From NCBI RefSeq assembly GCF_022669015.1, contig NZ_JAKKSL010000001.1:664059-728058 (forward strand): DNA of 64,000 nt, read 5' to 3'. A model generated the notes under the pieces. It was not told the DNA's origin. It saw only the letters and a program-made list of their open reading frames with translations, and ran no database searches. The stretch's first letter is position 1, and each line of letters opens with the position of its first letter. A program made the position numbers and the translations under genes. Of this stretch, positions 26,279-55,263 are shown one piece after another. This stretch comes from Colwellia maritima (GTDB taxonomy: Bacteria > Pseudomonadota > Gammaproteobacteria > Enterobacterales > Alteromonadaceae).

Positions 26279-26332
26279 TTGCTACAATAATAGCAAATAT
26301 CTTGCTTTATAACCTATATTTGCTACAATAAT
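26279..26332. promoter_or_regulatory. hipBA operator: palindrome plus second half-copy
   Basis: TTGCTA-CAATAA-TAGCAA at 26279-26296 is a perfect 6-bp inverted repeat, and TTGCTACAATAAT recurs at 26320-26332, ending 11 bases before the region of the hipB start. This is the expected form of a HipB autoregulatory operator (paired palindromes just upstream of hipB). Confidence 0.65.
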
Positions 26333-26343
26333 GACCAATTTAA

Positions 26344-26631: not shown

Positions 26632-27861
26632 AGATAAACTTATCGTCAAACGACGACTTGCTAATGGAAGCACAATTTCTGTTGGCGAACTCGCTGAAAA
26701 TAATACGGGTATATATTTTCAGTATGATGAACACTACTTGGCAAAATACTCAAACATTGCCCCATTTACTTTAGACGAGTCCACAAGACTGCAACTGGCT
26801 CCATCTACCCCACACAAAAAATTACACGGTGTATTTGCTGATAGTTTGCCAGACGGATGGGGACTTTACTTAATGGACCGAATTTTTAGACAAAGAGGGT
26901 ATGATCCTAAAACTGTCTCTCAACTAGAAAGACTTGCCTTTATTGGAGATAATTGTCTAGGTGCCTTATATTACTACCATCTACCAATTTTGACGATATC
27001 AAAAAGCAGGACGATATTTCAATACAGGAACTTGGTAAGCAGGCAGTAGAAGAGTTTGAAGGAACTGAAAGTGCGTTAATTGACCATTTAATGGATACAG
27101 CCGGCTCTGGTGGAGCAAGACCTAAAATAAATGCCATATTGTTGTCAGATGGATCATATTCTACTAAGCGAGGAGTAAGTGGTACGCCTTGTTTGATAAA
27201 ACTCACTTCAGATAATTTTTACTTAAAACATGAAGAAAGCCTTGTTGAATTCTGTTGTATGACATTAGCAAACAGGTGTGGTATTGAAACTGCAAAGTTT
27301 GAGTTATTGAATGGAAATGAAGATAGATTTTGGTTACGCCAAAATAGATTTGATTGCGTAGGTACCAAAGGAAGGCTTCATATGATATCCGCCAGTGGCC
27401 TTCTTGACGCTTCGTTTCGCGAACCTTCACTTGATTACGTTGACCTTGTTAAAGCAACACGCGCTATGTGTGGAGTGAAAGATGCAAAAAACCTTATTCA
27501 ACGAGCGCTTTTTAATTACCTGATCTGTAATCAAGACGATCATGCAAAGAATTTTTCTTATCTATGTGATGACTTTAATAATTGGAAGTTGTCACCATTT
27601 TATGATGTTGTTTATTCCCCTACACCTTTTGGTGAGCATATGACCTCATTTAATGGGGATGGTATTGCCCCAAAAAAATCCTCATTAGCTTTAATGGCGA
27701 AACATGCGGGCATAAACCCAAAAGAAACAGTAATCATGGTTGAAGAAATTATGGATCAACTGACTCATGCCAAATCATTATTTCAGAGTGTAGGGGTGTC
27801 ACAGTCCACGATTAGTACTATTACAAAAACTATTGGCGAAAAGTGGTTACAATTAAACTGA
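26624..27861 (+). CDS. hipA: HipA-like serine/threonine kinase toxin, frameshifted
   Basis: The N-terminal subdomain (VKRRLANGSTISVGELAENN, LHGVFADSLPDGWGLYLMDR) is in one frame, which breaks at ~26973. The rest continues YYYPSTNFDDIKKQDD, with the kinase-core blocks GSGGARPKINAILLSDG (P-loop-like), FDCVGTKGRLHMIS, NYLICNQDDHAKNFSYL (catalytic Asp) and LSPFYDVVYSP (metal-binding Asp). One added C at the break (TACTACC to TACTACCC) restores a HipA of normal length. HipA kinases phosphorylate glutamyl-tRNA synthetase or related targets and arrest growth. If the break is real, the toxin is dead. Confidence 0.83.
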
Positions 27862-27896
27862 AAAAATGGATAGAAAAAAGCAATGATCAAGTAGCT

Positions 27897-29219
27897 TTAC
27901 AAGCCAACCTCAATAGTGCCATGCCAATCAAATACTGTATTGTTTAAGTGTACCTGTGTTAATGATGCATTGAGGGTTGTAGGTAGGTTGCTAATCACTA
28001 AAGCGTTACTTGCATAGAGCTCAACCCCATTAAACTCTAATTGACTGTTTTCAATATATGCGATGGTTAGTGCCGTTAAACTTCCACCCCAAATTTCAAC
28101 ATCACTGTTATTCAAAGTCATGGCGTAATTGTTGTTATTGTTAATTTTTAAATGATTAAAGCTCACTGCAGAATTGTTGACTACTATTTTTTCAGCATGT
28201 AAATGGGCGATCTGTTTTTGTTGGCAGTTGTTAATAGTGACTAATGTATATTGGGTATTATTTAGTAATGACGTGCTATCATTTTTATCACAATCAATAG
28301 TTATGCTCTTGTCTGATATTGTGATGTTAGGTGCTTGCATAGTTTGATTATCACTAATGAAATCTTCAATTTTATTGACGATATCACTCGGGTGTTCTTT
28401 TTGGGGTGAATGACCCGCCTCTGGAAAAATGAACACGGCATGGGTATTAAGTAAATAACTTAACATGGTAGAAACTTGCACTGGCATTACCTGATCTTTT
28501 CCTCCCCAAATTATGAACGTAGGAGGTGATTCTTGTCGAATAAGCGCAGATAATTCTTCATTCATCACCGCAAGTGCTGAAATGGCATTAATATTATCAT
28601 CAAGTATTAAGGACCTGCCTGTTGAGCTGAGTAATACTCCCGTTGGGTCTGGTAAAAACTGATTTAGCGCATTCACTACGCTTTTTACTGTTGACGAATA
28701 TTGTTTAGCAAGAGGTAGCTGATTACCAACGTAATTTGCTGCAACATGCTCGCTATATGAAAACTTATTTAAAAAACCTGCAGCATCTATCAATATTAAT
28801 TTTTTAGCTAAAGTAGGTGCTTGCAGGGCTATTTGCACGGAAACATTCCCCCCCATAGAGTGCCCAATAATATAGTTGGTGCTATTAACGAGGGTTGGTA
28901 AAAGATCAATTAACAGTGTTGCATACTTTTGTGGAGAGAAAATATTTTCTTGACCTTGAGAAAGCCCAAAGCCAGGGAGATCGAGCAAGAGTAAATCATA
29001 ATTTTTAGATAAGTCAGCAACGATTTCTTTAAAATCTTCTGCTGAACCGCCTACACCATGAACCAAGGTAATAGAAGGTTTAGCGGGATGTTTAGGGGTT
29101 TGGTAAAAAGTTACTGAGGTATTATATTTTTCAGAAAAAACAACCTGCTCGATAAGTCCAAAGTCTTTATACCAATCATTAGCCATTGCTGACATGCTAA
29201 CAAACTGAATAAGTAACAA
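27897..29219 (-). CDS. secreted alpha/beta hydrolase with C-terminal beta-rich extension
   Basis: About 440 residues. Hydrophobic N-terminus LLIQFVSMSAMAND; the open frame extends further upstream (RRINNKILPLLLLLIQFVSM), so a proper signal peptide with an earlier unusual start is likely. Alpha/beta hydrolase fold: oxyanion loop TLVHGVGGSAEDF, nucleophile elbow IIGHSMGGNVSVQ, acid in IIWGGKDQVMP and His in PEAGHSPQKEH. Residues ~300-440 are Asn-rich with regularly spaced hydrophobics (KIVVNNSAVSFNHLKINNNN, YAMTLNNSDVEIWGGSLTAL), like a short right-handed beta-helix. Substrate unknown. Confidence 0.78.
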   Translation of the reverse strand: MLLIQFVSMSAMANDWYKDFGLIEQVVFSEKYNTSVTFYQTPKHPAKPSITLVHGVGGSAEDFKEIVADLSKNYDLLLLDLPGFGLSQGQENIFSPQKYATLLIDLLPTLVNSTNYIIGHSMGGNVSVQIALQAPTLAKKLILIDAAGFLNKFSYSEHVAANYVGNQLPLAKQYSSTVKSVVNALNQFLPDPTGVLLSSTGRSLILDDNINAISALAVMNEELSALIRQESPPTFIIWGGKDQVMPVQVSTMLSYLLNTHAVFIFPEAGHSPQKEHPSDIVNKIEDFISDNQTMQAPNITISDKSITIDCDKNDSTSLLNNTQYTLVTINNCQQKQIAHLHAEKIVVNNSAVSFNHLKINNNNNYAMTLNNSDVEIWGGSLTALTIAYIENSQLEFNGVELYASNALVISNLPTTLNASLTQVHLNNTVFDWHGTIEVGL

Positions 29220-29300
29220 TAAAAGAGGTAAGATCTTATTGTTGATGCGGCGTATGTTTTGCCTTTTTTGTACTGTAATAATAAATACCTCCCTAGCTAT

Positions 29301-31332
<2,032 letters not shown>

Positions 31333-31491
31333 TTATCAGGTGGCGGCTGACTAGCAATAACACGATTGCATTTTGTTATAGTTATTGCCAACATAGATGT
31401 TTACAAAGTGCTTTGCTTACAAGCTATAGTAAATAAAATAGAAGGAATTATCATGATAAAATTTAAATTGAAAAACAGAATGAATATATGA

Positions 31492-32009
31492 GTGGTGGCA
31501 GTATTGGGCCTGAGTATGGTTGCTTGTACGTCAACGTCTGAATCACCAGGTGAGCAAGCGTCAACTAATCAGGATAATTCAGTTTTTGTTGAGGGATCTA
31601 CTGTTGAAGCGTTAGTTAATATCCACGCAGATTATGCCAATAACCGTCTATATGCTTTAAATTATCAAATGTCTAATTTGATTCCTATGTGTAGTAAGTT
31701 TGTGATTGAAGATATTGGCAGCAAAGAAATTGAAATATCTCACCAAGGCAAAGTTTATCGCTATCTTTGGGATAAACATACGCGCTCAGCAGGACAATCA
31801 CTTGCACAGAATTTTAATACCTTTTTTGGTAAGCGTTGTGATAGTGATAGGGTTAAACGGCTAAGCAAAAAGGCAAACCATTGATAGGTATGATAAAAGA
31901 AGGTGTTAAATATGCAATGGGTACGCCACCAGTTCATGTAACAACGACACTTGAAGAAAATAACTGGACCTATTGGTTAACAGCGACTACCTTATTCATT
32001 TCGTCGTGA
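31492..32009 (+). CDS. small lipoprotein of unknown function, frameshifted
   Basis: GTG 31492 gives VVAVLGLSMVACTSTS, a short lipoprotein signal. An upstream ATG at 31453 is in the same frame but separated by a TGA, so the true N-terminus is uncertain. The body continues ALVNIHADYANNRLYALNYQ and SAGQSLAQNFNTFFGKRCDS, then loses frame at ~31868. One more A in an A5 run gives GKPLIGMIKEGVKYAMGTPP then VHVTTTLEENNWTYW to 32009. I do not recognise the family. Confidence 0.6.
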
Positions 32010-32421
32010 CACCTGCCTTTAGTCTATATTCGTAGTTCAATAGCCGATAGGCTATTGCCATCCTAACGCCGTTGGTGATTGAGTAAACTAATTTGATGTG
32101 AGCGGGATTGGGACTTCGTAACGACTTACGCGCATTTGTTCGGTTATATATGCTATCTGAGGAGAAGACATTTTAATTCCTTTTTATAAATTACATGCTG
32201 TATATGTATACAGATTAGTATGAAGCCGCCTTTCCACAAGCTTACATAAATTAAAGCGTTTAATTTTTTAAATAAAAAATTGAATATTTAATTAAATTAT
32301 TGATTAAAATAATAAAATAAATTAGCATAATTTTTAATTTACAAAATGTAGGCGAAAGTTACCTTTGTAGAAAGGCGGCAATTTGCCTACTATTAAACTG
32401 TTATGTTTCAAAAGGAGTCCA
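32010..32421. other. non-coding stretch with a RayT-element remnant
   Basis: No gene. Bases 32079-32112 match the 5' edge of the transposase gene at 34777-34810 (shared TTGAGTAAACTAATTTG and TGTGAGCGGG), so a piece of the same element once sat here. The rest is AT-rich leader of the next gene. Confidence 0.55.
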
Positions 32422-32997
32422 GTGGATATCGATCATTTAAAACTAGCACAGAAAGTCATTGAGCTTTCTGGTGGAAAAGACGCACTGAATGCAGAAATGG
32501 ATCGTAAGCTCTCGCTAATAAACGAAAAATGGAATCAAGATGTAGATGCTATAGGAAGAATTTTAAGGTCACACCTTTTTGTTGAGCACTTTCTAACTGA
32601 GTATCTTATTGCCCTAAATCCAAATCTTGGTGATTTAAAGGGTACGCGTTTAACCTTTTCACAAAAATTATCACTTGTGGAAAATCATTCTAACGAAACC
32701 AAAGAATTGGCGAGTGGCATTAGAAGGTTAAACTCAATACGTAATCAATTGGCACATCGATTGGAAGCCAAAGTAACTGACCAAGATAAAGAGTCGCTGT
32801 TATCACTTCATTCATTTCGTTATCTCCGAGAAGCGTTAGCAAAGCCTGATGTACCAAGTTCTGATAACTTAGTAGTTTTAGAGGACTTTGCTAAACATGT
32901 AGGTTCTCGTTTGGCATCATTAGCAGATCCAGAAGATTTATCAGCAAGAATCTCTCAAGCTATGTGCGAACTGGCAGTTGAAACATTAATTAACTAG
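32422..32997 (+). CDS. HEPN-like protein of unknown function
   Basis: About 191 residues from GTG 32422, preceded by AAAGGAGT (32411-32418); an in-frame start at 32383 has no ribosome site and would add unrelated residues. All-helical composition. The segment RRLNSIRNQLAHRLEAK contains R-x4-H (RNQLAH), the catalytic signature of HEPN-domain RNases and related toxins. No partner nucleotidyltransferase (MNT) or antitoxin gene is adjacent. The stop codon abuts the repeat array that begins at 32990. Classification beyond HEPN-like is not possible by eye. Confidence 0.6.
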   Translation: MDIDHLKLAQKVIELSGGKDALNAEMDRKLSLINEKWNQDVDAIGRILRSHLFVEHFLTEYLIALNPNLGDLKGTRLTFSQKLSLVENHSNETKELASGIRRLNSIRNQLAHRLEAKVTDQDKESLLSLHSFRYLREALAKPDVPSSDNLVVLEDFAKHVGSRLASLADPEDLSARISQAMCELAVETLIN

Positions 32998-33008
32998 GCC
33001 ACCCACTA

Positions 33009-33840
33009 ATTAACTAGGCCACCCACGATAAATCTAAGTAATAACGACACGTAAATCAGTTTGTTTTTTTATTAAAAAAATTCACAACATGATCAAGTAA
33101 ATGGTTCGGTTACCCGATTTTTTATTTTTAACGTCACTTTTTCTGAATTTAAGCTGAGAGAGTGCCGTGGCGTTAGCGAAACCACTTGTTTTTGTTTTGT
33201 CGTTTAGGTGTTTAATTACTTTATTGTTAAATAAAATTAGGCACGACAATTAACTAGGCCACCCACGATAAATCTAAGTAATAACGACACGTAAATCAGT
33301 TTGTTTTTTTATTAAAAAAATTCACAACATGATCAAGTAAATGGTTCGGTTACCCGATTTTTTATTTTTAACGTCACTTTTTCTGAATTTAAGCTGAGAG
33401 AGTGCCGTGGCGTTAGCGAAACCACTTGTTTTGTTTTGTCGTTTAGGTGTTTAATTACTTTATTGTTAAATAAAATTAGGCACTATTCAAACAAGCTTGG
33501 GCATTGGCTATGCCATGTGTTCGCTTTAAGCCTACATGTTCACTAAATTCACTTAAGTGCTCAGCTGTTCCGACAGCACCCGTGAAAATACATTCAAATT
33601 TTGTAATTAACTAGGCCACCCACGATAAATCTAAGTAATAACGACACGTAAATCAGTTTGTTTTTTTATTAAAAAAATTCACAACATGATCAAGTAAATG
33701 GTTCGGTTACCCGATTTTTTATTTTTAACGTCACTTTTTCTGAATTTAAGCTGAGAGAGTGCCGTGGTGTTAGCGAAACCACTTGTTTTGTTTTGTCGTT
33801 TAGGTGTTTAATTACTTTATTGTTAAATAAAATTAGGCAC
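33009..33840. repeat. three near-identical ~235-bp copies of the RAYT-element end
   Basis: Copies lie at 33009-33244, 33249-33483 and 33606-33840 and are almost identical (one T-run length difference, one base change). Each begins ATTAACTAGGCCACCCACGA and ends AATTAGGCAC. Between copies two and three, 33484-33605 is a diverged duplicate of the last ~120 bases of the transposase gene. The starting motif TAACTAGGCCACCCAC also appears once more at 32991. The array is therefore serial duplication of one end of the element, not a CRISPR or satellite. Confidence 0.85.
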
Positions 33841-34817
33841 TATTCAAACAAGCTTGGGCATTGGCTTTGCCATGCGTGCGTTTTAGTCCAACATGTTCAC
33901 TAAATTCACTTAAGTGCTCAGCTGTTCCTACAGCGCCCGTGAAAATACATTCAAATTGTGTGGTGAGTTTTAACCAACTTTCATCACTAATGTGTAGCCT
34001 GGCTAAAATGTTAGACGCTTTTGGGTTAATTGCGCCACGTTTATCGCTTCGAATTATTTTCCCCGTTTCATCTACAAGGGTTAAGTAGTCTTTCAAGCTG
34101 AAGCTTATGCCCTGGGTTTTGTGTTGATGTTCATTACCAGTAAAAGGGAGTAACTCGGTTGGTTGCTCACCGTTAATAGCCGCTTTAATACGTAATTGAA
34201 TCTTTGGTGAAACTTGATTGCTCGGGTGTAGGGGAGATAGCGGCACGTACTGGGTTTAAATCAACATAAGCCATACATGATAATAAGGCACCTTCATCAA
34301 GCAAGGCTTGAGATTTAAACCGTCCTTCCCAGAAATGGCCTGTGCATTTATCTTCTTGATTAGCTTGCCTTGCAATAGGCTCATTTAAGGAGCGCATAAA
34401 CCGGCTAATATCCATTAAACGCTCTTTGTATACTTTAGCGGTTTGTTCAACCATGGTGAGTTGATAGTCAGCCAGTGGTTGTTTGTTTAAATATTGGCGT
34501 GTGAGGAGCGTGCCTTTAAAAAGTTGATGCCAACGTTGAAGAATATCTGCTGTGGTCCACTGTTTTATTTGCTCACAATCAACATGCAGCACTAAATGTA
34601 AGTGATTGTGCATGATAGCATGGGCACAAATATCAATAGCAAAAGATTGGGATAATTGAAACAGACGTTTTTCAATCCAACCGCGTCTGTGTTCAAAGCT
34701 AGTGCCAGTTTCTTTATCGACCCCGCATAAAAAGGCTTTGCGTACAGTGCGGCTACAAATGTGGTAATAGGGGGTATTGAGTAAACTAATTTGTTGTGAG
34801 CGGGGTTTAGGCATCAT
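33833..34817 (-). CDS. REP-associated tyrosine transposase (RayT, IS200/IS605-related), frameshifted
   Basis: Y1-type HUH transposase of the RAYT group. N-terminal PKPRSQQISLLNTPYYHICS, HUH motif in AIMHNHLHLVLHVD, then DISRFMRSLNEPIARQANQ and CTGHFWEGRFKSQALLDEGA then LLSCMAYVDLNPVRAA, all characteristic. The frame is lost at ~34203 next to a CCAAAGA (minus strand) and continues IQLRIKAAINGEQPTELLPF and a C-terminal domain to the stop at 33833. RAYTs mobilise short palindromic repeats rather than themselves. Confidence 0.85.
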
Positions 34818-35009
34818 AGTGTCCGTACTTGATTGAGGTAAAGTAAGTGTAGTTTATCTTTGGGAAAGTTGCAAAAGTTATTATGGGTGGCCTGATAACA
34901 ATTTGTGAGCGTGGTTTAGGCATCATAGTTTCCATACTTGATTGAGGTAAAGTAAGTGTAGTTTATCTTTGGGAAAGTTGCAAAAGTTATTATGGGTGGC
35001 CTGATAACA
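34794..35009. repeat. duplicated opposite end of the RAYT element (two ~107-bp copies)
   Basis: 34794-34900 and 34903-35009 are near-identical, both ending TTATTATGGGTGGCCTGATA. TGGGTGGCCT is the reverse complement of AGGCCACCCA at the start of each 235-bp repeat, so the two arrays are the inverted ends of one element. CCTGATAACAC is repeated once more after the second copy. Confidence 0.8.
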
Positions 35010-35086
35010 CAGCCTGATAACACACTTTAGTGTGATCTCATCACTGCCTGCTTTTCCTTAATCCTTTTCGGTAGCAGGGGCACTAT

Positions 35087-35130
35087 AAAAAAGGGGGCAG
35101 GTACACATAATTTAATTAGTACCTGACCCC
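35087..35130 (-). terminator. terminator of the ParDE-like operon
   Basis: GGGGGCAGGTAC (35093-35104) pairs with GTACCTGACCCC (35119-35130), with an A6 run at 35087-35092 that reads as T6 on the minus strand. It lies 10 bases after the toxin stop. Hairpins of this GGGTCAGGTAC type are also common next to RAYT elements. Confidence 0.72.
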
Positions 35131-35140
35131 ATTTATCCCA

Positions 35141-35434
35141 TTAGAGTGCGGAGTTAACATCCATACTTTTATGTAATATTCGCACTATAAATATTTGGTT
35201 GTTTTTATATTCTTTGTAATAAATTACATGACTAGCTTGTGGATATTTACTATAGCCTTCTCTGATATCATGGCAGTTAATACCTAACTCGGGATCTTCC
35301 GACAATAAATGAAACGTATTATCTAATACTTTTAGGTAACCATTTCGTTGAGCGAGTCCCCAAGTTATTTGAGTATATTTAGCTATTTTAATTAAGTCTG
35401 TTTTTGCTTTCGAAGATAATACAAACTTATTCAT
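35141..35434 (-). CDS. parE: ParE/RelE-family toxin
   Basis: 97 residues of the RelE/ParE fold: FVLSSKAKTDLIKIAKYTQI, LGINCHDIREGYSKYP, HVIYYKEYKNNQIFIVRILH then KSMDV, the C-terminal block typical of ParE. It overlaps its antitoxin by 8 bases. ParE-type toxins poison DNA gyrase; the closely related RelE group cleaves mRNA, but the partner here is ParD-like. The frame is intact. Confidence 0.88.
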   Translation of the reverse strand: MNKFVLSSKAKTDLIKIAKYTQITWGLAQRNGYLKVLDNTFHLLSEDPELGINCHDIREGYSKYPQASHVIYYKEYKNNQIFIVRILHKSMDVNSAL

Positions 35435-35666
35435 TAATGTTATCTAATTCAGTCATTAAGCTTTCATAGCTGTAATCTGCAACACCACTTTGTTCGCCTT
35501 GGATTAGCATATTACGTAAATTTAAAAGTTTAGCCTCTTGGTCTTCTAAAGCTCTCAATCCGGCTCTAACAATTTCACTTGCTGAGCCATAACGACCAGT
35601 GCTAAGTTGTTGGTTTATAAACTGATCAAAATGATCGCCTAATGTTACACTTGTATTTTTAGCCAT
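35427..35666 (-). CDS. parD: ParD-family antitoxin
   Basis: 79 residues, with the ribbon-helix-helix N-terminus (MAKNTSVTLGDHFDQFINQQ) and the CC2985-type signature GRYGSASEIVRAGLRALEDQ then EAKL. The acidic C-terminal tail (DYSYESLMTELDNINE) would bind the toxin. First gene of the minus-strand operon, autoregulated by homology. Confidence 0.9.
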   Translation of the reverse strand: MAKNTSVTLGDHFDQFINQQLSTGRYGSASEIVRAGLRALEDQEAKLLNLRNMLIQGEQSGVADYSYESLMTELDNINE

Positions 35667-35876
35667 AATATAAAACCTTATAAGTACCTAGATATAATAT
35701 ATTATGGTATAAAAAACATAACAAGTCATTTAAAAGGACAAAAAACAGTTGGCTTTTGTTCACTATTTTAGCCAATAATTTTATTGCCGCTTAGCAAAGC
35801 GTTGATTGTCTTTCAAACTCAGAGTTGTTTTAAATATTGCACATGTTTTCTTTATTGGTTAGACTTGTCTTATTAG

Positions 35877-35884
35877 TTGTACAA
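35877..35884. promoter_or_regulatory. YefM-type operator palindrome TTGTACAA
   Basis: TTGTACAA lies 16 bases before the yefM start. The E. coli YefM-YoeB repressor binds palindromes with a TGTACA core at the same relative position, so this is very likely the autoregulatory operator. Confidence 0.7.
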
Positions 35885-35899
35885 CTCGTGAGGTGTTTT

Positions 35900-36154
35900 A
35901 TGCGCATAGTTTCTTTCACAGAAGCCAGAAACGGGCTTAAATCGGTATTAGATCGTGTTGTAAACGATGTTGACTACACCGTTATAACTCGTAGAGATGC
36001 AGAAGATGCAGTAGTAATGTCTATGGATCATTACAACAGTCTTATGGAAACTGTTCATTTACTTAAATCTCCGGCTAATGCTACACATTTATCTAAATCA
36101 ATAGAACAGTATAATTCAGGAAAGGTGCAGTCTAGAGATTTAATTGATGACTAG
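35900..36154 (+). CDS. yefM: YefM/Phd-family antitoxin
   Basis: 84 residues from ATG 35900, preceded by GTGAGG; a longer frame from 35837 adds an unlikely hydrophobic leader. N-terminal MRIVSFTEARNGLKSVLDRV then VNDVDYTVITRRDAEDAVVM is the YefM DNA-binding fold. The C-terminal part (LLKSPANATHLSKSIEQYNS) would wrap the toxin. It overlaps yoeB. Confidence 0.9.
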   Translation: MRIVSFTEARNGLKSVLDRVVNDVDYTVITRRDAEDAVVMSMDHYNSLMETVHLLKSPANATHLSKSIEQYNSGKVQSRDLIDD

Positions 36155-36407
36155 GCAACTTGCATGGACTGATGAAGCTTGGAGTGATTATGTATACTGG
36201 CAAAGCCAAGATAAGAAGACGCTTAAACGTATTAATAAATTAATTAATGATACCAAGCGTTCACCATTTGAAGGTATTGGTAAACCTGAGTCACTAAAAG
36301 AAAATTTATCGAGCTTTTGGTCTAGACGAATAGATGAAACTAATCGTTTAGTTTATGCCGTATCTGATTCGTATTTAACTATAATTTCCTGTCGCTACCA
36401 TTATTAG
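36144..36407 (+). CDS. yoeB: YoeB-family mRNA interferase toxin
   Basis: 87 residues; start at 36144 or 36147. LAWTDEAWSDYVYWQSQDKK, INKLINDTKRSPFEGIGKPE, SLKENLSSFWSRRIDETNRL and the C-terminal CRYHY are diagnostic of YoeB, including the catalytic Glu, Arg and His. It cleaves mRNA in the ribosomal A site. The frame is intact. Confidence 0.93.
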   Translation: MMTRQLAWTDEAWSDYVYWQSQDKKTLKRINKLINDTKRSPFEGIGKPESLKENLSSFWSRRIDETNRLVYAVSDSYLTIISCRYHY

Positions 36408-36664
36408 TTTAGGCGGCAGCTAATAAGCGTCTCAACTCCGACAATGTCCTAGTTATTACTCGTTATTATGTTCATATTTCACCCATTGATTGTTTTTTTA
36501 AGCTTGAAGCCTGTTTTTGTCTGTGATCTAATAGATATTATTCGCCGACAGTAAAATATTATTGTTGATACATATATTATGGCTCTGGTTTGTAAAACTA
36601 ACCCACGTTTAGAGGTTAGTATCTCTTGGGAGTTATTGTGTCTATTTTGGCTTTCAACCATATG

Positions 36665-37543
36665 ATGAACATTAAAATTGTTTCTTGGTAACAGTTTTTT
36701 TAGGGCTGTTTTCTAATATCACTTTTGCGCAAAATGATGTGCATAGCTTACTTATATCAGGTAACACTAAGCAGCTTAGGCAAGCAGCTCAAATGATGAC
36801 CACAAACCAAGCAAAACACGCCAGAGAACTTACGTTTATTAGCCAATATTATTGAACAAGAGTATGAGACTGCGCCTACAAGTAGAATTGACGCTTTGTC
36901 TTGGGGATGCAGAGCGTTGGGCGCTACAGGTGATAGTCAGTATATGCCATTGTTGCAAAGCATTTATCAAAGTAAAGCTGCGCATAAAAAATTGAAAAAA
37001 TATGCGAACAAAGCCTATCAATATTTACTGAATTCGGCTCATGCAATCATGACAAGTGAAGCCACAGCGCCTGTAGATAGAGAAATTACGGCGACAATAG
37101 CTCCTCTTCCTTTACCGCCACGAATGAATGCACAAGATATAATCCCGAAAGCATCATTGTCTGCCAACCAACGACAAATATTTGCCATTGCTAAAGGTGA
37201 ATGGCAAGCAATTAAGTATATTGCTCAGCACATAAGCAAAATGGAGCACGTTGGAGCAGCAGAAATAGAGGTATATGATGCTTTAGGGCAGTTTTTAGTT
37301 GAGATGTATGGCTATAATTTGGATAACAAAAAAATAGACGTGCTTGCATGGATTTGCCGAACCTTAGGTGAAAGTAAAAATGGGCGATATAAAGTACTTT
37401 TACAACAGGTGGCTAATCAGGTAGTTAATACAAAACTCCAAAATTATGCTTCATCAGCAAGCCGCTCATTACCTCAGAACGCTACACCTTATATTATCGG
37501 TGGCATCAATTTTCAGAAAATTCTGGATACATATCAGCAATAA
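36665..37543 (+). CDS. secreted helical-repeat protein of unknown function, two frameshifts
   Basis: ATG 36665 gives MNIKIVSW; after a one-base gap (GG for GGG, ~36694) the frame continues VTVFLGLFSNITFAQ, a signal peptide. The body (LLISGNTKQLRQAAQMMTTN, QAKHARELT) breaks again at ~36833 (T3 for T2) and continues LLANIIEQEYETAPTSRIDA then LSWGCRALGATGDSQYMPLL to 37543. The segment ALGATGDSQYMPLLQSIYQS and its later echo TLGESKNGRYKVLLQQVANQ look like two HEAT-like helical repeats. I do not recognise the family. Confidence 0.65.
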
Positions 37544-37582
37544 TAGCTACCTCTAGTTAAGTTTATATTGGTAGCTAGTGCG

Positions 37583-38050
37583 CTATTGGTGTTTTTTACG
37601 TCTTTTTTTAGGCTTTCTGTGTTTAAGATTTATCGTAACACGCTGATCTTTAGTCAATACAAAGGCGCTATCTTCTGGGGTTGGTTCACCGCCAAATAAA
37701 CTGGGATTGTTTGAGAAACCTACAGGCTCTAACGGTATATTATTAGATGATCTATCAAGCAGACCATTGTTATTTATGTCTTGAAATAGTCTTATTGCAT
37801 AAGTTCTTTTTTGCAGCCCAGTAAAAATAATATCTTGATTGTCTGTATCGAATTCAGTAATTTTTTTATCAATTAAATGAAGGTTTTGCCAATCTTGAGA
37901 GTTTGTATCAGTTAATAAATACACTTCCATTACTATTTTTTTATCAATAGTTTTTATTTTTGCTACTTTAACGGTCAATTCTAGCGAAAAGGATGGATTT
38001 GAAAATAAAGCAATGCTAAAAAGGAAGATGGTTATTATGAACTTAGTCAT
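37583..38050 (-). CDS. DUF2141-family secreted protein
   Basis: About 155 residues from the ATG at 38050 (MTKFIITIFLFSIALFSNPS, signal peptide); the ORF extends 20 codons upstream without such a signal. Conserved DUF2141 block: YAIRLFQDINNNGLLDRSSN then NIPLEPVGFSNNPSLFGGEP and TPEDSAFVL. Basic C-terminal tail (KHRKPKKRRKKHQ). Function unknown. It is divergent from darA with only ~70 bases between the starts, so a shared promoter region is likely. Confidence 0.82.
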   Translation of the reverse strand: MTKFIITIFLFSIALFSNPSFSLELTVKVAKIKTIDKKIVMEVYLLTDTNSQDWQNLHLIDKKITEFDTDNQDIIFTGLQKRTYAIRLFQDINNNGLLDRSSNNIPLEPVGFSNNPSLFGGEPTPEDSAFVLTKDQRVTINLKHRKPKKRRKKHQ

Positions 38051-38122: not shown

Positions 38123-39082
38123 TTGGTGCGAAAAATCCTTGTTGTTAGCTACTCTCAAACAGGTCAGCTAACTAAAATTGTAGACTCAATAATGGGGCCA
38201 TTACTTAATGATGAGCAAATCCAAATTGACTCACTTACCATTCAGCCTCAAGTTAAATTTCCTTTTCCTTGGTCATTTTTTAAATTCTTTCAAGTGATGC
38301 CAGAGTCGGTTTATATGAAAGAGATAGAGCTAGATAAAGTGACCCTACACAGTAGTATTGATAGTAGTTCTGACGATACGACCGATGTTATGAACGAGCC
38401 TTACGATTTGATTATTTTATCTTATCAAGTGTGGTTTTTATCACCTTCATTGCCTATATCAAGTTTTTTGCAGTCAGAACAAGCTAAAATACTTTTTAAT
38501 AATACCCCTGTTATGACCGTTATTGGCTGCCGAGGAATGTGGTTAACGGCACAAGAAAAAATGAAAGTGTTATTAGCCAAGCTAAATGCGAATTTAGTCG
38601 ACAATATAGTATTAACGGATGAGTGTGGTGCGGGTTTTAGTTTTTTAGCAACCCCTTTGTGGATGCTAACGGGTAATAAAAAGCCAGTCTCTTGGGTGCC
38701 TAAAGCAGGTGTGTCAGATCAAGAAATTGCGAAAGCACAGCGTTTTGGGATCGCAATCAAAAAACGGTTAACAGACACTAACAGTAAAATAACAACACCA
38801 ATGATGACAAGCTTAGCCGCTGTAAAAATTAATGAAAAATTAATTATGAGTGAGAAGATTGGGCACAGAAGTTTTAAAGTTTGGGGAAAGTTGTTGATGC
38901 TGTTGGGTCCTCAAAACTCTGTTAGACGATGTGTTGGTTTATGCTTTTATTTTACGTTTTTACTGGCATTAATTGTCACTATTGTGCCAATTACGGCTTT
39001 AATTATTAAATTAATATCCCCTATTTTCAAAGCAAAAATAGCGAAACAAAAAGCTTATTACGCACAGCCATCAGGAGAGTAG
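38123..39082 (+). CDS. darA: DarA-like dialkylresorcinol condensing/aromatising enzyme
   Basis: 319 residues; start at TTG 38123 or GTG 38126. A flavodoxin-like N-terminus (KILVVSYSQTGQLTKIVDSI) is followed by the segment FPFPWSFFKFFQVMPESVYM, characteristic of the protein called DarA in flexirubin and dialkylresorcinol clusters. A C-terminal hydrophobic helix (YFTFLLALIVTIVPITALII) is present. DarA acts with the ketosynthase DarB to join two beta-keto acyl units and form the resorcinol ring. It is directly followed (6 bases) by darB, the normal order. The frame is intact. Confidence 0.8.
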   Translation: MVRKILVVSYSQTGQLTKIVDSIMGPLLNDEQIQIDSLTIQPQVKFPFPWSFFKFFQVMPESVYMKEIELDKVTLHSSIDSSSDDTTDVMNEPYDLIILSYQVWFLSPSLPISSFLQSEQAKILFNNTPVMTVIGCRGMWLTAQEKMKVLLAKLNANLVDNIVLTDECGAGFSFLATPLWMLTGNKKPVSWVPKAGVSDQEIAKAQRFGIAIKKRLTDTNSKITTPMMTSLAAVKINEKLIMSEKIGHRSFKVWGKLLMLLGPQNSVRRCVGLCFYFTFLLALIVTIVPITALIIKLISPIFKAKIAKQKAYYAQPSGE

Positions 39083-39088
39083 AAAACC

Positions 39089-40234
39089 ATGGGAAAACGC
39101 GTTTTCATCAATAATATTTCAGCATTTCTTCCAAATGACAAAGTGTCTAATGCTGAAATGGAAGATATAATTGGTAAAATTTCAGGCAAGAAATCTAGAG
39201 CAAAGTCAGTAATATTACGTAGCAACGGCATTAAATCACGTTATTACGCTATTGATAAAATCACAGGTGAGTTTAATTATACTAACGCTGCTTTAGCTGC
39301 GAATGCGGTTCAAGGGTTATTTAAGCATGAAGACGAATTAAACAACATTGATTGCTTAGTTGCTAGTACCTCAATGGCAGACCAAATCATGCCAAATCAT
39401 GCCGTTATGGTTCATGGTGAATTAAAAAACCCTCCTTGTGAAGTTGTATCAACAGCGGGTATTTGTTTGTGTGGTCTTACGGCACTTAAATATGCTTTTT
39501 TAAATATTAAAGCGGGTGAAAGTCATCGCAGTGTTGTTGTAGCAAGTGAATTGGCTTCAAGTATTATGCGATCGGAAAGATTTGAAGCTGAGAGTGAGTA
39601 TAAATTGGCGCAATTAGATCAAAAGCCGGAAATTGCCTTTGAAAAAGACTTTTTGCGTTGGATGTTATCAGATGGCGCCGGCTCTGCACTTTTGTCTGAT
39701 GAACCCAATGTGGATAAGTTATCCCTTGAAATAGATTGGATTGAAACCCTCTCTTTTGCCGATCAAATGGAACCTTGTATGTATGCAGGTGCCGACAAAG
39801 TAGAAGGCCGTTTACAGGGGTGGATGAGGTTTAATGATGATGAACGATCGCAGCAATCTATTATGTCGGTTAAACAAGATGTCAAAATATTAAATGAAAA
39901 TATTGTATCGATAACTGTAGAAAAAGCACTATCTAAAATAGCGGCTAAACGTGCCATTAAACCAGAAGATTTCACTTATTTTCTGCCCCATTATTCTTCA
40001 ACCTATTTTCGCGAAAAACTGTTTGACGGACTTGAAAATATTGGCTTTAGCATACCTTATGACAAATGGTTTACCAATTTAACAGCCAAGGGTAATACAG
40101 GGTCTGCCTCTATATTTATTATGTTGGAAGAGCTATTTAATTCAGGTCGATTAAAATCGGGAGATAAGTTATTGTGTTATGTACCCGAAAGTGGACGGTT
40201 TTCTAGTGGGTTTATGCAATTAACTGTATGCTAA
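39089..40234 (+). CDS. darB: DarB-like beta-ketoacyl-ACP synthase III
   Basis: 381 residues, KAS III fold. Catalytic Cys126 in STAGICLCGLTALKYAF, His in FLPHYSSTYFREKL and Asn in LTAKGNTGSASIFIM complete the KAS III triad. In dialkylresorcinol pathways DarB makes the ACP-bound intermediate that DarA condenses. It follows darA and precedes a small unknown gene and a BtrH-like gene, an order also seen in flexirubin-type clusters. The frame is intact. Confidence 0.82.
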   Translation: MGKRVFINNISAFLPNDKVSNAEMEDIIGKISGKKSRAKSVILRSNGIKSRYYAIDKITGEFNYTNAALAANAVQGLFKHEDELNNIDCLVASTSMADQIMPNHAVMVHGELKNPPCEVVSTAGICLCGLTALKYAFLNIKAGESHRSVVVASELASSIMRSERFEAESEYKLAQLDQKPEIAFEKDFLRWMLSDGAGSALLSDEPNVDKLSLEIDWIETLSFADQMEPCMYAGADKVEGRLQGWMRFNDDERSQQSIMSVKQDVKILNENIVSITVEKALSKIAAKRAIKPEDFTYFLPHYSSTYFREKLFDGLENIGFSIPYDKWFTNLTAKGNTGSASIFIMLEELFNSGRLKSGDKLLCYVPESGRFSSGFMQLTVC

Positions 40235-40262: not shown

Positions 40263-40667
40263 ATGAAAAAAGAGCAAGTACCACAAGATAGCTGCAAATC
40301 CTACGATGGTCATAAAAAGCTTATTTATGCCGTGGATGAAAATGGCCATTATCAAGGCGTACAATCGTCAGGATGGGAAGTGGAAGGTTTTGCCACTGAA
40401 ATGGCTGTTCAAGCACTTGATGAGCAATTAAACGATATGAAAAAAGCGCTTTTAGCGGGCACAGTATCTCCCATTGCCTATTATTTACCCCTATATCGGT
40501 TTGATTTAATGTCGCTTGCTCATGCTTCTGGTTTTTTTCAATGGCAAATTAAGCGCCACATGAAGCCAGAAATCTTTGCTAAGTTATCAGACAAAAAATT
40601 AACTAAATATTGTGAAGCATTTAATATCTCACTTGAAGACTTAAAACAACCGGTTATTAAAGAATGA
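40263..40667 (+). CDS. small conserved protein of the DAR block, unknown function
   Basis: 134 residues. It is soluble, with no signal peptide and no ACP-type DSL motif, so it is not the missing DarC carrier protein. Recognisable stretches: KLIYAVDENGHYQGVQSSGW then EVEGFATEMAVQALDEQLND, and SPIAYYLPLYRFDLMSLAHA then SGFFQWQIKRH. It overlaps the BtrH-like gene by 4 bases, implying tight coupling. Proteins of this kind accompany BtrH-like genes in aryl polyene/flexirubin clusters from memory of such loci; I cannot assign a role. Confidence 0.65.
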   Translation: MKKEQVPQDSCKSYDGHKKLIYAVDENGHYQGVQSSGWEVEGFATEMAVQALDEQLNDMKKALLAGTVSPIAYYLPLYRFDLMSLAHASGFFQWQIKRHMKPEIFAKLSDKKLTKYCEAFNISLEDLKQPVIKE

Positions 40668-41668
40668 AAGCAATTGAAAATAAAATAAGCCATAAACAAT
40701 CATCTCATTGTGAATCTGGCGTTGTAGCCAATATGCTTAATTCTCAAGGAATGAACCTATCCGAGCCAATGGTTTTTGGTTTATCCTCAGCGTTAACCTT
40801 TGTTTATCTTCCTATTGTTAAGGTGGGGGGGTTACCGCTTATTGCTTATAGAATGCCACCAAAATCTATTATTTCTTCTGTTTGCAAAAAGTTAAACGTA
40901 AAAGTTAACTCACAAAAATTTTCAAATCCTGAAGCAGGCATGAAGGCGCTAGACAAGGCCTTAAGCGAAGGCAAGTTGGTGGGCTTACAAACGTCTGTTT
41001 ATTGGTTACCTTATTTTCCTGAAGATATGCGTTTTCAATTTAATGCCCATAACTTAACGGTTTACGGTAAAAATGAACAAGGAGATTATTTAATTAGTGA
41101 TCCTGTTTTTGAAGACGTGGTGACTTGCCCTGCAGATGATTTAAAACGCGCTCGTTTTGCCAAAGGGGTGTTAGCGGCTAAAGGGTTAATGTATGAAATG
41201 ACCTTACCAACGGTTGAGGTTGATTTAGCGCCACAGATTAAAAGTAGCATTAAGAAAACAGCTAAAATGATGAATGGTTTGTTATTACCTTTTTTTGGTA
41301 ATAAAGGTATTAGACACCTAGTTAAAAAAATCAAAACACTCAAAGATAAACCCCATAAAGACGCCGCCATGTTTCTAGGGAATATCGTGCGAATGCAAGA
41401 AGAAATAGGGACAGGAGGCGCAGGGTTCCGTTTTATGTTCGCTAGCTTCTTGGACGAAGCCGCATCATATCTTAAGGATGATACCTTATTCGAAATTTCT
41501 ACATTCACCACCGAAATTGGTGACTTATGGCGTGAGTTTGCGATGAAATCAGTATTGTTTTGTAAAAACAGAAAAAATGTAACGATAGATGATGTTGCCG
41601 CTAGCCTCGAACTTTGTGCTGAGCAAGAAGCAATATTACGTTCAAAATTATTACAATGGAGTAAATAG
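40664..41668 (+). CDS. BtrH-like acyltransferase (BtrH N-terminal domain plus DUF4872-like C-terminus)
   Basis: 334 residues. The N-terminal cysteine-peptidase-like domain has HCESGVVANMLNSQGMNLSE (candidate Cys) and FNAHNLTVYGKNEQGDYLIS then DPV (candidate His and Asp), the layout of BtrH. BtrH of butirosin biosynthesis moves an ACP-bound acyl chain onto an amine. Here, between DarB and a ketoreductase, it is a good candidate to transfer the polyene acyl chain from ACP onto the dialkylresorcinol or another acceptor. The C-terminal half is helical. The frame is intact and the next gene starts 3 bases later. Confidence 0.78.
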   Translation: MKAIENKISHKQSSHCESGVVANMLNSQGMNLSEPMVFGLSSALTFVYLPIVKVGGLPLIAYRMPPKSIISSVCKKLNVKVNSQKFSNPEAGMKALDKALSEGKLVGLQTSVYWLPYFPEDMRFQFNAHNLTVYGKNEQGDYLISDPVFEDVVTCPADDLKRARFAKGVLAAKGLMYEMTLPTVEVDLAPQIKSSIKKTAKMMNGLLLPFFGNKGIRHLVKKIKTLKDKPHKDAAMFLGNIVRMQEEIGTGGAGFRFMFASFLDEAASYLKDDTLFEISTFTTEIGDLWREFAMKSVLFCKNRKNVTIDDVAASLELCAEQEAILRSKLLQWSK

Positions 41669-41671: not shown

Positions 41672-42397
41672 ATGAATCGCCGTGTTTTAGTAACAGGTTC
41701 CAGTAAAGGTATAGGTAAAGCCATTGCCATAAAACTGGCTGAAATGGGGTTCGACATTTGTCTTCATTGTCGTGCTGACATGACAAGTGCAGAACAAGTA
41801 GCGCAAGATATTACCACCAAAGGTGTACAAGCCACTATTGTACAATTTGATGCGGCTGATAGAGAAGGCACGAAAAAAGCATTGGAAACACATATTGCAG
41901 ACTATGGCCACTTTTACGGCATAGTGTGTAATGCAGGAATATCTGCCGATACCGCTTTTCCTGCCATGACTAGTGCTGAGTGGGACAGTGTTATTCATAC
42001 TAATTTAGATGGTTTTTATAATGTATTGCATCCGTTAGTGATGCCAATGGTAAGCGCGAGAAAAGGCGGGCGAATTATTACTATTTCGTCACTCTCGGGG
42101 GAAATAGGCAACCGAGGGCAAGTCAATTATAGTGCCTCCAAAGCAGGGATTATTGGCGCAACTAAAGCCCTTGCCCTTGAACTGGCTAAACGAAAAATCA
42201 CCGTAAATTGTGTTGCACCAGGCTTAATTGAAACAGAAATGACAGACGAGCTGCCTATTGCCGATTTAAAAAACATGATCCCATTAAGACGAATGGGTAA
42301 ACCTGATGAAGTTGCTAGTGCGGTGGCTTTTTTAATGTCTGATGGGGCAAGCTATATTACTCGGCAAGTAATCTCGGTAAACGGTGGCATTGCGTAA
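41672..42397 (+). CDS. apeQ: 3-oxoacyl-ACP reductase, FabG/ApeQ-like
   Basis: 241 residues, short-chain dehydrogenase. Cofactor motif VLVTGSSKGIGKAIA, NAG motif in IVCNAGISADTAF, catalytic Ser in ITISSLSGEIG, and Tyr153/Lys157 in VNYSASKAG. In aryl polyene clusters the ketoreductase ApeQ usually sits between apeP and apeR; that slot is empty here, so this gene most likely supplies the reduction step for polyene elongation. The frame is intact. Confidence 0.88.
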   Translation: MNRRVLVTGSSKGIGKAIAIKLAEMGFDICLHCRADMTSAEQVAQDITTKGVQATIVQFDAADREGTKKALETHIADYGHFYGIVCNAGISADTAFPAMTSAEWDSVIHTNLDGFYNVLHPLVMPMVSARKGGRIITISSLSGEIGNRGQVNYSASKAGIIGATKALALELAKRKITVNCVAPGLIETEMTDELPIADLKNMIPLRRMGKPDEVASAVAFLMSDGASYITRQVISVNGGIA

Positions 42398-42400: not shown

Positions 42401-43273
42401 TTGAAACAATACAAAGCGTTTATATTCTTCTTACTATTTGCTGCTCAAACGATATCAGCAAACGAACAGGCACAACCAGAAGAGCATAACGCTAACGCGA
42501 ATATAAATACGCAGAAACGTGAGAATACCGCCCATTACTCAATAGGATTTGGGGTATCAATGATGACCATTGATGATTATATTGGCGCTGACGAATCGCG
42601 TTTTTATCTTATCCCTACGCCCTATATATATTATCAAAATGATTCGGTTGTTATTGACCGAAATGCATTTGAAGGGGATTTATTTAATAGTGAAAAATGG
42701 CATTTGGCATTGGATGCAGCGGGATCTATTCCTGTTGATAGCGATAGAAACAAAACCCGACAAGGTATGGACGATTTAGACTGGGTTGGTGAATTAGGCC
42801 CTTCGTTAGAATACTATTTCGCGGGTAATAGCCGCTCACAAAACCGTACTTTTATTGACTTTTCTGTACGAAAAGCGGTTCATACTGATTTTAAAAAAAT
42901 TGCTGATGCGGGATGGACTAGCCAAATTAGTGTGAACAACAAATACCAATTTAACACTGATATCTTTGGGGGAAAAACCATTATAGATACCTCAGTGGCA
43001 ACATTATTTTATTCTGATAAATATGCTCAATATTTTTATTCTGTAGCACCTGATGAAGTATCAGCAGAGAGAGCACAATACAGTGCTGAAGGGGGCTATG
43101 CAGGTGTTAGAGTATCATTCGGCGGTACGTGGCGGCGAAAGAACATTTGGCTTGGTTTGTTTACCCGTTATACCCACCTGAACAATACATCCTTTGACGA
43201 CAGCCCGTTAATAAAGTCAAACACAAATTTATTAATAGGCCTCTCTGTGTCCTATATATTTATGGAAAAGTAA
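42401..43273 (+). CDS. MipA/OmpV-family outer-membrane protein
   Basis: 290 residues. Signal peptide (KQYKAFIFFLLFAAQTISAN) from a TTG start three bases after the ketoreductase stop, then a beta-barrel-type sequence: SIGFGVSMMTIDDYIGADES, YLIPTPYIYYQNDSVVIDRN and the terminal YIFMEK pattern, as in MipA/OmpV. Its placement within the pigment operon suggests a role in housing or inserting the pigment in the outer membrane, but that is inference. Confidence 0.8.
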   Translation: MKQYKAFIFFLLFAAQTISANEQAQPEEHNANANINTQKRENTAHYSIGFGVSMMTIDDYIGADESRFYLIPTPYIYYQNDSVVIDRNAFEGDLFNSEKWHLALDAAGSIPVDSDRNKTRQGMDDLDWVGELGPSLEYYFAGNSRSQNRTFIDFSVRKAVHTDFKKIADAGWTSQISVNNKYQFNTDIFGGKTIIDTSVATLFYSDKYAQYFYSVAPDEVSAERAQYSAEGGYAGVRVSFGGTWRRKNIWLGLFTRYTHLNNTSFDDSPLIKSNTNLLIGLSVSYIFMEK

Positions 43274-53096: not shown

Positions 53097-55263
53097 ATGG
53101 GCACACCCTTAAACGCCATTGTGGTTAAACCATTACGCCACAAGTTTAAGCAACTTAAGCAATTTGGCTTGGTTTTGACAACTGCATTCGCCTTTAGCGG
53201 CATTTTTGCTGTAGGGCAAGCAAGTGCTGCAGAATATTCGCCAAGTTTTAAAGACACGGAAATTGTCGAGTTTGTCACGATTGTTGGCAAAAACTTGAAA
53301 AAAACAATGATTGTTGATCCTAACGTACGCGGTAAAATTAACGTGCGTAGTTATGATTTATTATCAGAAGAGCAATATTATCAATTTTTCCTCAATGTAT
53401 TACAGGTTTACGGTTTTTCAGCGATAGAAAGAGATAATAATATTATCAAAATCATTCGTAATAAAGATGCTAAAACGGCTGCTATTCCGGTTATTGGTGA
53501 TGATGGAAAAATAATGGGTGACGAAATGGTTACCCGTATTGTTGAAGTGAAAAATGTTACCGTTCGAGAATTAGTGCCATTGCTACGACAGTTATCAGAT
53601 CAAGCGGGTGGCGGTAATGTTACGAACTATGATCCTGCTAACGTTATTATGCTTACGGGTACAGCCGCCACAGTGAATCGATTAGTGAATATTATTGAAC
53701 GTGTCGATAGAGTCGGTGATCAAGATATAGAAATCATAAAATTACAGTATGCGTCAGCAGGTGAAATGGTACGAATTATCGAAGCCATGTATAAACCCTC
53801 TGGCGGAAAATCAGGCGAACCAACCTTTTTAATTCCCAAAATCGTTGCTGACGATCGCAGTAATAGTGTGATTGTTAGTGGTGAAGTAAAAGCTCGTGAA
53901 CGCGCAGCAAAATTAGTGAAACGCCTTGACAGTGAATTAGAGTCGAGCGGCAATACTCGAGTCTATTACCTTAAATATTCAAAAGCAGAAGATTTAGTAA
54001 AAGTGTTGAACGGAGTGAGTAAAACTATCGCTTCAGAAGATAGCGTCAATAAATCACGTGCCGCGGCTAATTCAAAAACTGATACCAGTATTGAAGCTCA
54101 TGAATCAACCAATACGTTAGTTATTACAGGTCAGCCTGATATGTTACGTGCGTTAGAATCGGTTATTCGTCAGCTTGATGTGCCTCGCGCGCAAGTGCAT
54201 ATTGAAGCCATTATTGTTGAAGTATATGAGTCAGATGGCGCTCAATTAGGTGTGCAATGGTATAGCGAAGCGGGTGGTTTTACCCAGTTTACTAATGGAC
54301 CAAAGATCTATCTCATCTGTTGCAGCCGCAGGCAAACTTGCTGAAGGAACAGACGGAGATATAGTTCCGGCCGTCTATTCATCAGAAACCGGTAAAAAGA
54401 TTTCTGATGAATACAGACTAAACGATACTGAAGGCGATTATACCTTGTTAGCAGAAATACTGGGTTCAGTGAGTGGTGGCATGTTTGGTATTATGAAAAA
54501 TGATTGGGGTGCGATTATTCAGGCGGTTAGCTCTGATACTAACTCTAATATTTTAGCGACACCGAGCATTACTACTTTAGATAATGAAGAAGCCTCTTTC
54601 TTAGTTGGTCAAGAAGTTCCTATTATCACTGGTTCTCAAACGGGTAGTAATAACTCAAACCCGTTCCAAACAGTAGATCGTCAAGAAGTAGGTATTAAAC
54701 TGTTAGTAACGCCACAAATAAATGAAGGTAACAGTGTACAACTAACTATTGAACAGGAAGTTTCATCAGTGAGTGGTACTACGGGTGTTGATATTTCAAT
54801 TAACAAACGTGAAATAAAAACCACTGTTATGGTGGAAAGTGGTCAAACCGTTATTTTAGGTGGCTTAATGGATGAAGACGTACAAGAAAGTGTGCAAAAA
54901 GTGCCATTATTAGGTGATATTCCTATTATTGGACATTTGTTTAAATCGACATCAAACACCACAAGAAAACGTAATTTAATGGTATTTCTTCGACCTCAGA
55001 TTATGACTGATTCAAGTGTTATGCATAATTTAGCGAAAGAGAAATACAACTTTATTCGCGCTGATCAGTTACGTAAACAAGAAGAAGGCTTATCTTTGAT
55101 GCGTGATGAAAAATTACCTATTTTACCGCAGTGGAATGACAAATTGACCTTGCCACCTTCGTTCGATAAGTATCAAGAGTCGATTAAAGACGGTAAATTC
55201 AATCAAGAAGATGTAGCAACAGACGAAGTATTGAAACCGCTTGCAGTAGAAGAGAATAAGTAA
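53097..55263 (+). CDS. gspD: type II secretin GspD, frameshifted
   Basis: Signal peptide ([19 protein letters not shown]-like), N0 domain ([20 protein letters not shown]), N1-N3 domains ([40 protein letters not shown]), then the secretin barrel ([60 protein letters not shown]). The frame is lost at ~54302 in NGP(CCAAAGA) and resumes as [19 protein letters not shown]; removing one base restores one protein of ~720 residues. It forms the outer-membrane pore. In an organism with working T2SS this would be intact. Confidence 0.92.

Follow-up and report, generated by a model that had tools for sequence, protein, structure and literature searches.

The DarG-DarH pair follows the dialkylresorcinol genes, and DarH is a candidate enzyme for joining aryl polyene and resorcinol

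Introduction

The darG-darH gene pair of Colwellia maritima lies in a 64,000-nucleotide stretch of DNA (hereafter the window), directly downstream of the ketosynthase gene darB. In a sample of gammaproteobacterial genomes, the pair was found only together with DarB. We consider it reasonably likely that DarH joins a polyenoyl chain carried on an acyl carrier protein (ACP) to a hydroxyl of a dialkylresorcinol, with DarG as its partner or as a regulator. This reading was reached by elimination, as polyene genes alone occur without the pair and DarA and DarB suffice for the resorcinol, together with the predicted fold of DarH.

In Bacteroidota, esters of polyenes and resorcinols serve as chemotaxonomic pigments, and many Proteobacteria are expected to make them too. 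Azoarcus sp. BH72 makes arcuflavin, a polyene-resorcinol conjugate whose ester was predicted by the authors from mass spectrometry; its resorcinol proteins yielded the free resorcinol in E. coli, which was undetectable in Azoarcus's own extracts (PMC3949708). In Table 1 of that paper, the neighbors of darA-darB are a "conserved hypothetical" gene, darD, and darE, annotated as a "BtrH-like peptidase"; genes for an ABC transporter, an ACP and a ketosynthase come after these. Other genes bear the names darG and darH in that table, and the available portion of the paper gives no role for darE. For Chitinophaga, where heterologous expression of darA and darB yielded the dialkylresorcinol, a "ligase-like enzyme (FlxW)" was proposed to join the two halves (PMC3992019). 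The original prediction, which knew of no enzyme assigned to the ester step, was too broad in this respect, since FlxW had already been suggested and NCBIfam already names DarH an acyltransferase. Among the matches listed in a search of the open-access literature, we found no paper testing an enzyme for the ester bond in the text available, a weak absence. Free resorcinol is produced by Pseudomonas chlororaphis, with darABC plus darS and darR (PMC6403133), and by Photorhabdus asymbiotica, with a DarABC operon (PMC4414361); the available parts of these two papers do not name the DarG-DarH pair for either cluster.

Results

Gene neighborhood of the pair in the window

The features of the window on which the analysis draws are as follows:

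721..993, + strand: acyl carrier protein, candidate polyenoyl carrier (putative role); PP-binding 38 bits, cut-off 20.8
1011..1262, + strand: second acyl carrier protein (putative role); PP-binding 46 bits
22555..23745, + strand: polyene-type ketosynthase; NF006618 509 bits, cut-off 407
24287..25513, + strand: second polyene-type ketosynthase; NF006587 712 bits, cut-off 470
38123..39082, + strand: darA, dialkylresorcinol-forming partner of DarB, named by place and by similar open reading frames (ORFs)
39089..40234, + strand: darB, StlD/DarB family ketosynthase; NF005293 577 bits, cut-off 450
40263..40667, + strand: darG, 134 aa; NF053536 (DarG_fam) 175.3 bits, cut-off 70, profile positions 1-129 of 131
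40664..41668, + strand: darH, 334 aa; NF053550 (DarH_acyl) 464.6 bits, cut-off 300, profile positions 2-324 of 325
41672..42397, + strand: ketoreductase of the FabG2 type, next in the run; TIGR01831 389 bits, cut-off 339
42401..43273, + strand: MipA/OmpV-like outer membrane protein; Pfam MipA 126 bits
43315..44415, + strand: FlxJ-like methyltransferase; NF053543 443 bits, below the cut-off of 560

We confirmed that darG and darH overlap by 4 bases and that the pair sits between darB and the ketoreductase gene, as predicted, the four genes being nearly contiguous on the + strand. Both ORFs are real genes judging by NCBIfam matches over cut-off (DarG_fam and DarH_acyl) and, for DarH, by Pfam matches (BtrH_N and DUF4872), and by these profile matches the pair is not new as genes, its products being members of the curated families DarG and DarH. 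The description of the 134-residue protein as unknown therefore stood as to its function and fell as to its family, already named DarG in NCBIfam. The curated names come without a donor, an acceptor or a fold for DarG. Pfam divided DarH into BtrH_N (166 bits) and DUF4872 (157 bits), and DarH was the single BtrH_N match in the window's genome at an E value of 0.001.

DarH adjoins DarA and DarB, the former recognized by place and similarity only: the ORF at 38123..39082 had no Pfam or NCBIfam match, and ORFs 39-63% identical to it were found near DarB in other loci. We take this ORF to be DarA. The assignment agrees with the published darA-darB order (PMC3949708), and the order darA-darB-darG-darH was found again in relatives. 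DarB scored below the cut-off of the narrower model NF053539 (494 versus 550 bits).

The window also holds a polyene cluster with two ACPs and two ketosynthases over NCBIfam cut-offs; the two ketosynthases are presumably of the polyene type, as judged from their place. A LolA2-like protein, an MMPL-like exporter and a split ammonia-lyase were matched below the profile cut-offs. About 12 kb (approximately 25600..37600) separate the polyene block from the darABGH block, and the ORFs in this interval look toxin-antitoxin-, HipA- and transposase-like. Polyene-type genes start no more than about 1 kb from darH in Paraglaciecola (L059).

The pair follows the resorcinol genes in the class sample

Co-occurrence was assessed with NCBIfam profile cut-offs in an even sample of 274 genomes from the window's class. 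DarH was over its cut-off in 13 of these genomes and DarG in the identical 13, while DarB was over cut-off in 16, which included all 13 with the pair; neither DarG nor DarH exceeded its cut-off in any of the 258 genomes without DarB (DarH with and without DarB, 13 and 0; no DarH with and without DarB, 3 and 258; Fisher p 9e-20). The polyene ketosynthase NF006587 was present in 26 genomes, and among these DarH was found in 9 of the 12 with DarB and in 0 of the 14 without (Fisher p 7e-5). Overall, the comparison that had been proposed between genomes with both aryl polyene and dialkylresorcinol genes and those with polyene genes only showed that the pair follows the resorcinol genes. The pair was not common in clusters lacking these genes, the finding that had been named as contrary to the prediction, and a general aryl-polyene feature is ruled out by its absence from all 14 polyene genomes without DarB.

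All 13 DarH genomes had a polyene ketosynthase over cut-off by NF006587 or NF006618, the four without NF006587 (G071, G072, G131 and G241) having the other polyene-type ketosynthase, NF006618. The same was true of all 16 DarB genomes by one of the two models. Within these 16, DarH was present in 9 genomes with and 4 without NF006587 and absent from 3 and 0, respectively (p 0.53); because all 16 have a polyene ketosynthase, a need of DarH for polyene genes beyond that of DarB is not resolvable in this set.

Two further class genomes encoded a distant BtrH relative below cut-off, without DarG; the distant BtrH-family proteins at L015 and L016 (genomes G138 and G013), taken together with matches on plasmids, were about 21-30% identical and not beside DarG. 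In the control genome of Bacteroides ihuae, DarB was over cut-off and neither DarH nor DarG was matched, so that this DarB may lack the pair, or a DarH there may have diverged too far for a match. Among the 14 control genomes, NF006618 was matched below cut-off in 9 and over cut-off in none.

Named DarB loci and pair-less genomes

A DarB profile scan of the genome_contigs collection was then evaluated for its best 80 named loci, which by their titles come from Gamma-, Beta-, Alpha-, Delta- and Epsilonproteobacteria, with no title naming Bacteroidota among them. DarG and DarH were found in the DarB locus in 75 of the 80, nearly always directly 3' of DarB, and the three genes were on one strand in 74 of these 75. 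DarG without DarH, or the reverse, was seen in no locus except the cut locus L134, whose genome has DarH elsewhere with DarG beside it. Separated pairs were rare: in L037 a 338-aa ORF on the same strand (10075..11091) lies between DarG and DarH, and in L125 about 2.3 kb lie between them.

DarH was absent at an E value of 1e-6 from L081 (whose genome is G221), L093, the Brenneria locus L103, the Pseudomonas H3 locus L132, G104 and G198. Five genomes combined DarB and a polyene-type ketosynthase over cut-off with the absence of DarH at this threshold, namely G104, G198, G221 (identical to G283), Brenneria G298 and Pseudomonas sp. H3 G318. These five count against a joining role for DarH, and would fit it only if their two products stay unjoined. 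In the locus of the Brenneria strain (sp. hezel4-2-4), no darA was seen. Within the genus of Pseudomonas H3, also named H3(2019), DarB was over cut-off in 21 of 249 genomes, with the pair immediately downstream in 18 of the 21. The family of Brenneria had DarB over cut-off in 2 of 149 genomes, neither with the pair within about 1.5 kb on either side. The loci of both groups extend about 1.5 kb to each side of DarB, and G579, G489 and G461 are pair-less within that distance.

The polyene ketosynthase search covered 50 of the 80 named genomes and 10 sampled genomes. Among the pair-bearing named genomes, NF006618 was over cut-off in 33 of 46 and below it in 13; 12 of these 13, mostly Campylobacterota and Desulfo- groups, scored 278-336 bits, somewhat above FabF-like matches, and the pair-bearing G309 reached only 242 bits, the FabF level.

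A DarB tree was built by a quick method from 75 rows (97 DarB sequences, from which 2 identical ones and 23 near-relatives were removed and to which 3 pair-less ones were added), in which L054, a long branch below the DarB cut-off, was labeled pair-less. On this tree, the pair-less label requires six changes, at least 5 of them on starred branches, and pair status has therefore switched repeatedly. Pairwise distances of DarB, DarG and DarH correlated at 0.90-0.92 across 88 rows, figures that are inflated by related sequences; such values are as expected for genes travelling together. At least one genome (L040 and L087) is represented twice among the 88 rows.

A DarH scan of the viral_contigs collection found no relative. 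BtrH-family matches on plasmids (51 records, 45 of them from Acinetobacter) were rejected as DarH, the best 20 of the 51 being 27-30% identical and coming from Acinetobacter and Actinomycetes.

Predicted fold and catalytic residues of DarH

DarH consists of a papain-like N-terminal domain (BtrH_N) and a helical C-terminal domain (DUF4872). Its AlphaFold2 (AF2) model, computed from 13 sequences (pLDDT 82.7, pTM 0.85), matched AziU3 (Z 25), CtaG (Z 23-24) and CcbD (Z 21-22) over 292-309 aligned residues, which is near the whole chain; the next match (Z 12) covered the papain-like domain alone. Cys16, His129 and Asp146 were invariant in all 88 aligned rows and Gln109 was conserved in 87 of 88. 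The CtaG variants C11A, H128A and D144N, known from PDB entry titles, mark residues in the same order and at similar spacing to C16, H129 and D146 of DarH. Two distant BtrH relatives keep these three residues and, in the helical domain, also share a GTGG-xxFR motif. DarH is a basic protein (median pI 9.4), with a median net charge of +1 over its final 34 residues. Searching PDB sequences with profiles of DarH and DarG gave no convincing relative, the best match (E 0.011) being a designed coiled coil.

The assignment of DarH as a BtrH-like acyltransferase was borne out by the predicted fold and the triad of ACP- or PCP-dependent acyltransferases, and by the NCBIfam description "BtrH-related acyltransferase". 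As modeled, DarH has both the fold and the Cys-His-acid triad of the BtrH/CtaG/CcbD acyltransferases. Its likeness to BtrH of butirosin biosynthesis lies in the Pfam domains BtrH_N and DUF4872; BtrH is an ACP:aminoglycoside acyltransferase (PMC10318531), so its acceptor is an aminoglycoside, and its family, with a papain-like fold, was placed among transacylase-like enzymes (PMC2922099). CcbD, from celesticetin biosynthesis, follows a carrier-protein-dependent ping-pong mechanism with a Cys-His-Glu triad and accepts many acyl groups (PMC12945683), while CtaG, the peptidyl transferase of closthioamide biosynthesis, was proposed to move hydroxybenzoate off one carrier and onto a carrier-bound peptide (PMC6772006). 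With these two, DarH shares the near whole-length fold, the Cys-His-acid residues and a carrier-bound donor like the one proposed for it, although sequence identity is only 11-14%. CcbD acylates amines and CtaG, as proposed, a carrier-bound amine, whereas DarH would form an aryl ester. AziU3 of azinomycin biosynthesis, the best fold match, was solved as a complex with its partner AziU2 according to the entry titles, and serves aziridine formation rather than acyl transfer. We know of no phenol O-acylation by the BtrH/CtaG/CcbD fold, whose known reactions are to amines or between carriers.

Predicted structure of DarG

The AF2 model of DarG (pLDDT 81) has a low-confidence start, an N-terminal beta-hairpin, a long helix and, at residues 66-134, a mostly confident helix-turn-helix (HTH) domain of the Cro/C1 type. 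Residues 66-134 matched DdrO, SinR and P22 c2 in the PDB with Z 9.5-10.4 over 60-70 residues, the highest Z being reached over 62 residues. The best Foldseek match was NGO0477 of Neisseria (E 0.005), and none reached 0.001. Pfam HTH_26 was matched weakly in 5 of 13 DarG homologues (best E 0.0011), while the window DarG itself matched no Pfam family at E values up to 1, HTH_26 included. In the putative recognition helix, Trp94 was conserved in 85, Arg98 in 87 and His99 in 86 of 88 sequences. Against the flexirubin DarG equivalog NF053545, the window DarG scored 148.2 bits, under the cut-off of 170; by these profile scores, it is in the wider DarG family and outside the curated flexirubin subgroup.

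Stretches upstream of darA were collected from 74 loci, of which three groups were aligned; the 8 Variovorax and 6 marine loci had diverged too far. The consensus of the 21 Pseudomonas loci showed no palindrome by eye that could serve as a DarG operator; a promoter-like stretch is common to these loci.

Exporter genes and extent of the cluster

With thresholds set by the analysis itself, 68 of the 75 pair-bearing loci had an ABC-2 ATPase and as many (68) a permease, with both in 67, several of the loci without an exporter being short contigs. Neither gene was found in the 4 pair-less loci, and both were present in L134. As ABC-2 exporter genes track the pair about equally well, co-occurrence by itself does not point to the ester step specifically. 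The window's genome has its ABC-2 exporter genes some 12 kb upstream of the window, accompanied by an ACP-like ORF and by a ketosynthase resembling DarJ, and the complete cluster therefore exceeds the window. Close relatives likewise have an ACP-like ORF and a separate ketosynthase near the resorcinol genes. By the published gene table, Azoarcus BH72 darD-darE are like the pair and adjoin darA-darB in a conjugate producer; ABC transporter genes follow the pair there, whereas the ketoreductase gene follows it in the window.

Discussion

In the class sample, the pair occurs where both halves of the pigment are encoded. It is probably dispensable for the resorcinol half, because darA and darB of Chitinophaga and the Azoarcus proteins expressed in E. 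coli gave the resorcinol. A carrier-protein acyltransferase would be well suited to coupling a polyenoyl chain, carried on an ACP, with a phenol. DarH would act as a cysteine acyltransferase that has the BtrH/CtaG/CcbD fold and depends on a carrier protein: the finished aryl-polyenoyl chain would pass from its ACP to Cys16, and from there to a phenolic hydroxyl on the DarA-DarB product, 2,5-dialkylresorcinol, with His129 as the putative base and Asp146 in a supporting role, and the product would be a flexirubin/arcuflavin-type ester. DarG may be a binding partner of DarH or a regulator of the cluster. In this scheme, we infer the donor, the acceptor, the ping-pong order and the role of DarG.

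A different function in the resorcinol branch, in which DarH as an acyltransferase or thioesterase would move another acyl group (fatty or 3-oxoacyl) between ACPs, edit misloaded ACPs or serve another acceptor before export, would agree with the pair tracking DarB rather than the polyene genes, with relatives that have an ACP-like ORF and their own ketosynthase near the resorcinol genes, and with the many acyl groups taken by CcbD (PMC12945683). We regard it as rather unlikely, because DarA and DarB gave the resorcinol heterologously (PMC3992019) and every DarH genome in the class sample also has a polyene ketosynthase. It is also quite improbable that the ester is made by another enzyme, either FlxW, for which there is a published proposal (PMC3992019), or an acyltransferase of the LPLAT type from the polyene cluster, with DarG, DarH and the ABC exporter serving transport or processing. 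Such a transport role would account for the exporter genes that accompany the pair in most loci and are missing from the 4 pair-less ones, and for the match of exporter C39 domains to the DarH model (Z 10-12). However, DarH is far nearer to the carrier-protein acyltransferases (Z 21-25) than to these domains, and LPLAT- and GT-type genes are also found in the polyene cluster of E. coli, where linking the polyene to a lipid anchor is the role proposed for ApeD and ApeJ (PMC8253772).

DarG may be either a regulator or a protein partner. That it serves as a Cro/C1-type transcription regulator specific to the cluster, separate from the catalysis by DarH, is a realistic possibility somewhat short of an even prospect, and one compatible with a joining role for DarH. 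The predicted HTH fold, the weak HTH_26 matches among its homologues and the near-invariance of two residues of the putative recognition helix, Arg98 and His99, speak for regulation. On the other hand, darG is third in the gene run and never occurs without DarH in the class sample (13 of 13 genomes); enzymes that do not act on DNA (HppE, HEPD and MPnS) also match as holders of such domains. The absence of a palindrome by eye upstream of darA in the 21 Pseudomonas loci counts slightly against a regulator and is weak either way. A bolder form of the joining proposal, which we put forward tentatively and hold to be possible but doubtful, is that DarH is the missing ester enzyme and the first of its fold to O-acylate a phenol, with DarG as an obligate accessory subunit that perhaps docks the acidic polyenoyl-ACP, as in AziU2/AziU3.

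If DarH does join the two halves, the presence of the pair would predict from a genome a joined pigment, while DarA and DarB alone would predict free resorcinol signals. An old gap in the pathway of the widespread flexirubin-like yellow pigments would be filled, and the carrier-protein acyltransferase fold would be extended to aryl esters. It also raises the question why the helix-turn-helix-like DarG travels with DarH.

Additional observations on the window and its genome

A second StlD/DarB-like ketosynthase was found on another contig of the window's genome (G000:C4:179809-180903, L036), with 396 bits against the cut-off of 450. The polyene cluster of the window is interrupted at 5539..6842 and 9485..11735 by integrase pieces and an IS21 pair of transposase and helper ATPase, which sit between an LPLAT-type gene and the ammonia-lyase. 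Several genes are split into ORFs in different frames (15888..17611, 18565..20762, 53097..55263 and 60488..61538 in the window, and 5609..7663 in L168), these being the ammonia-lyase, the MMPL-like exporter, two genes of a putative type II secretion run and the upstream ABC exporter genes. Because the breaks are numerous and also affect housekeeping-type genes, sequencing indels rather than decay are suggested.
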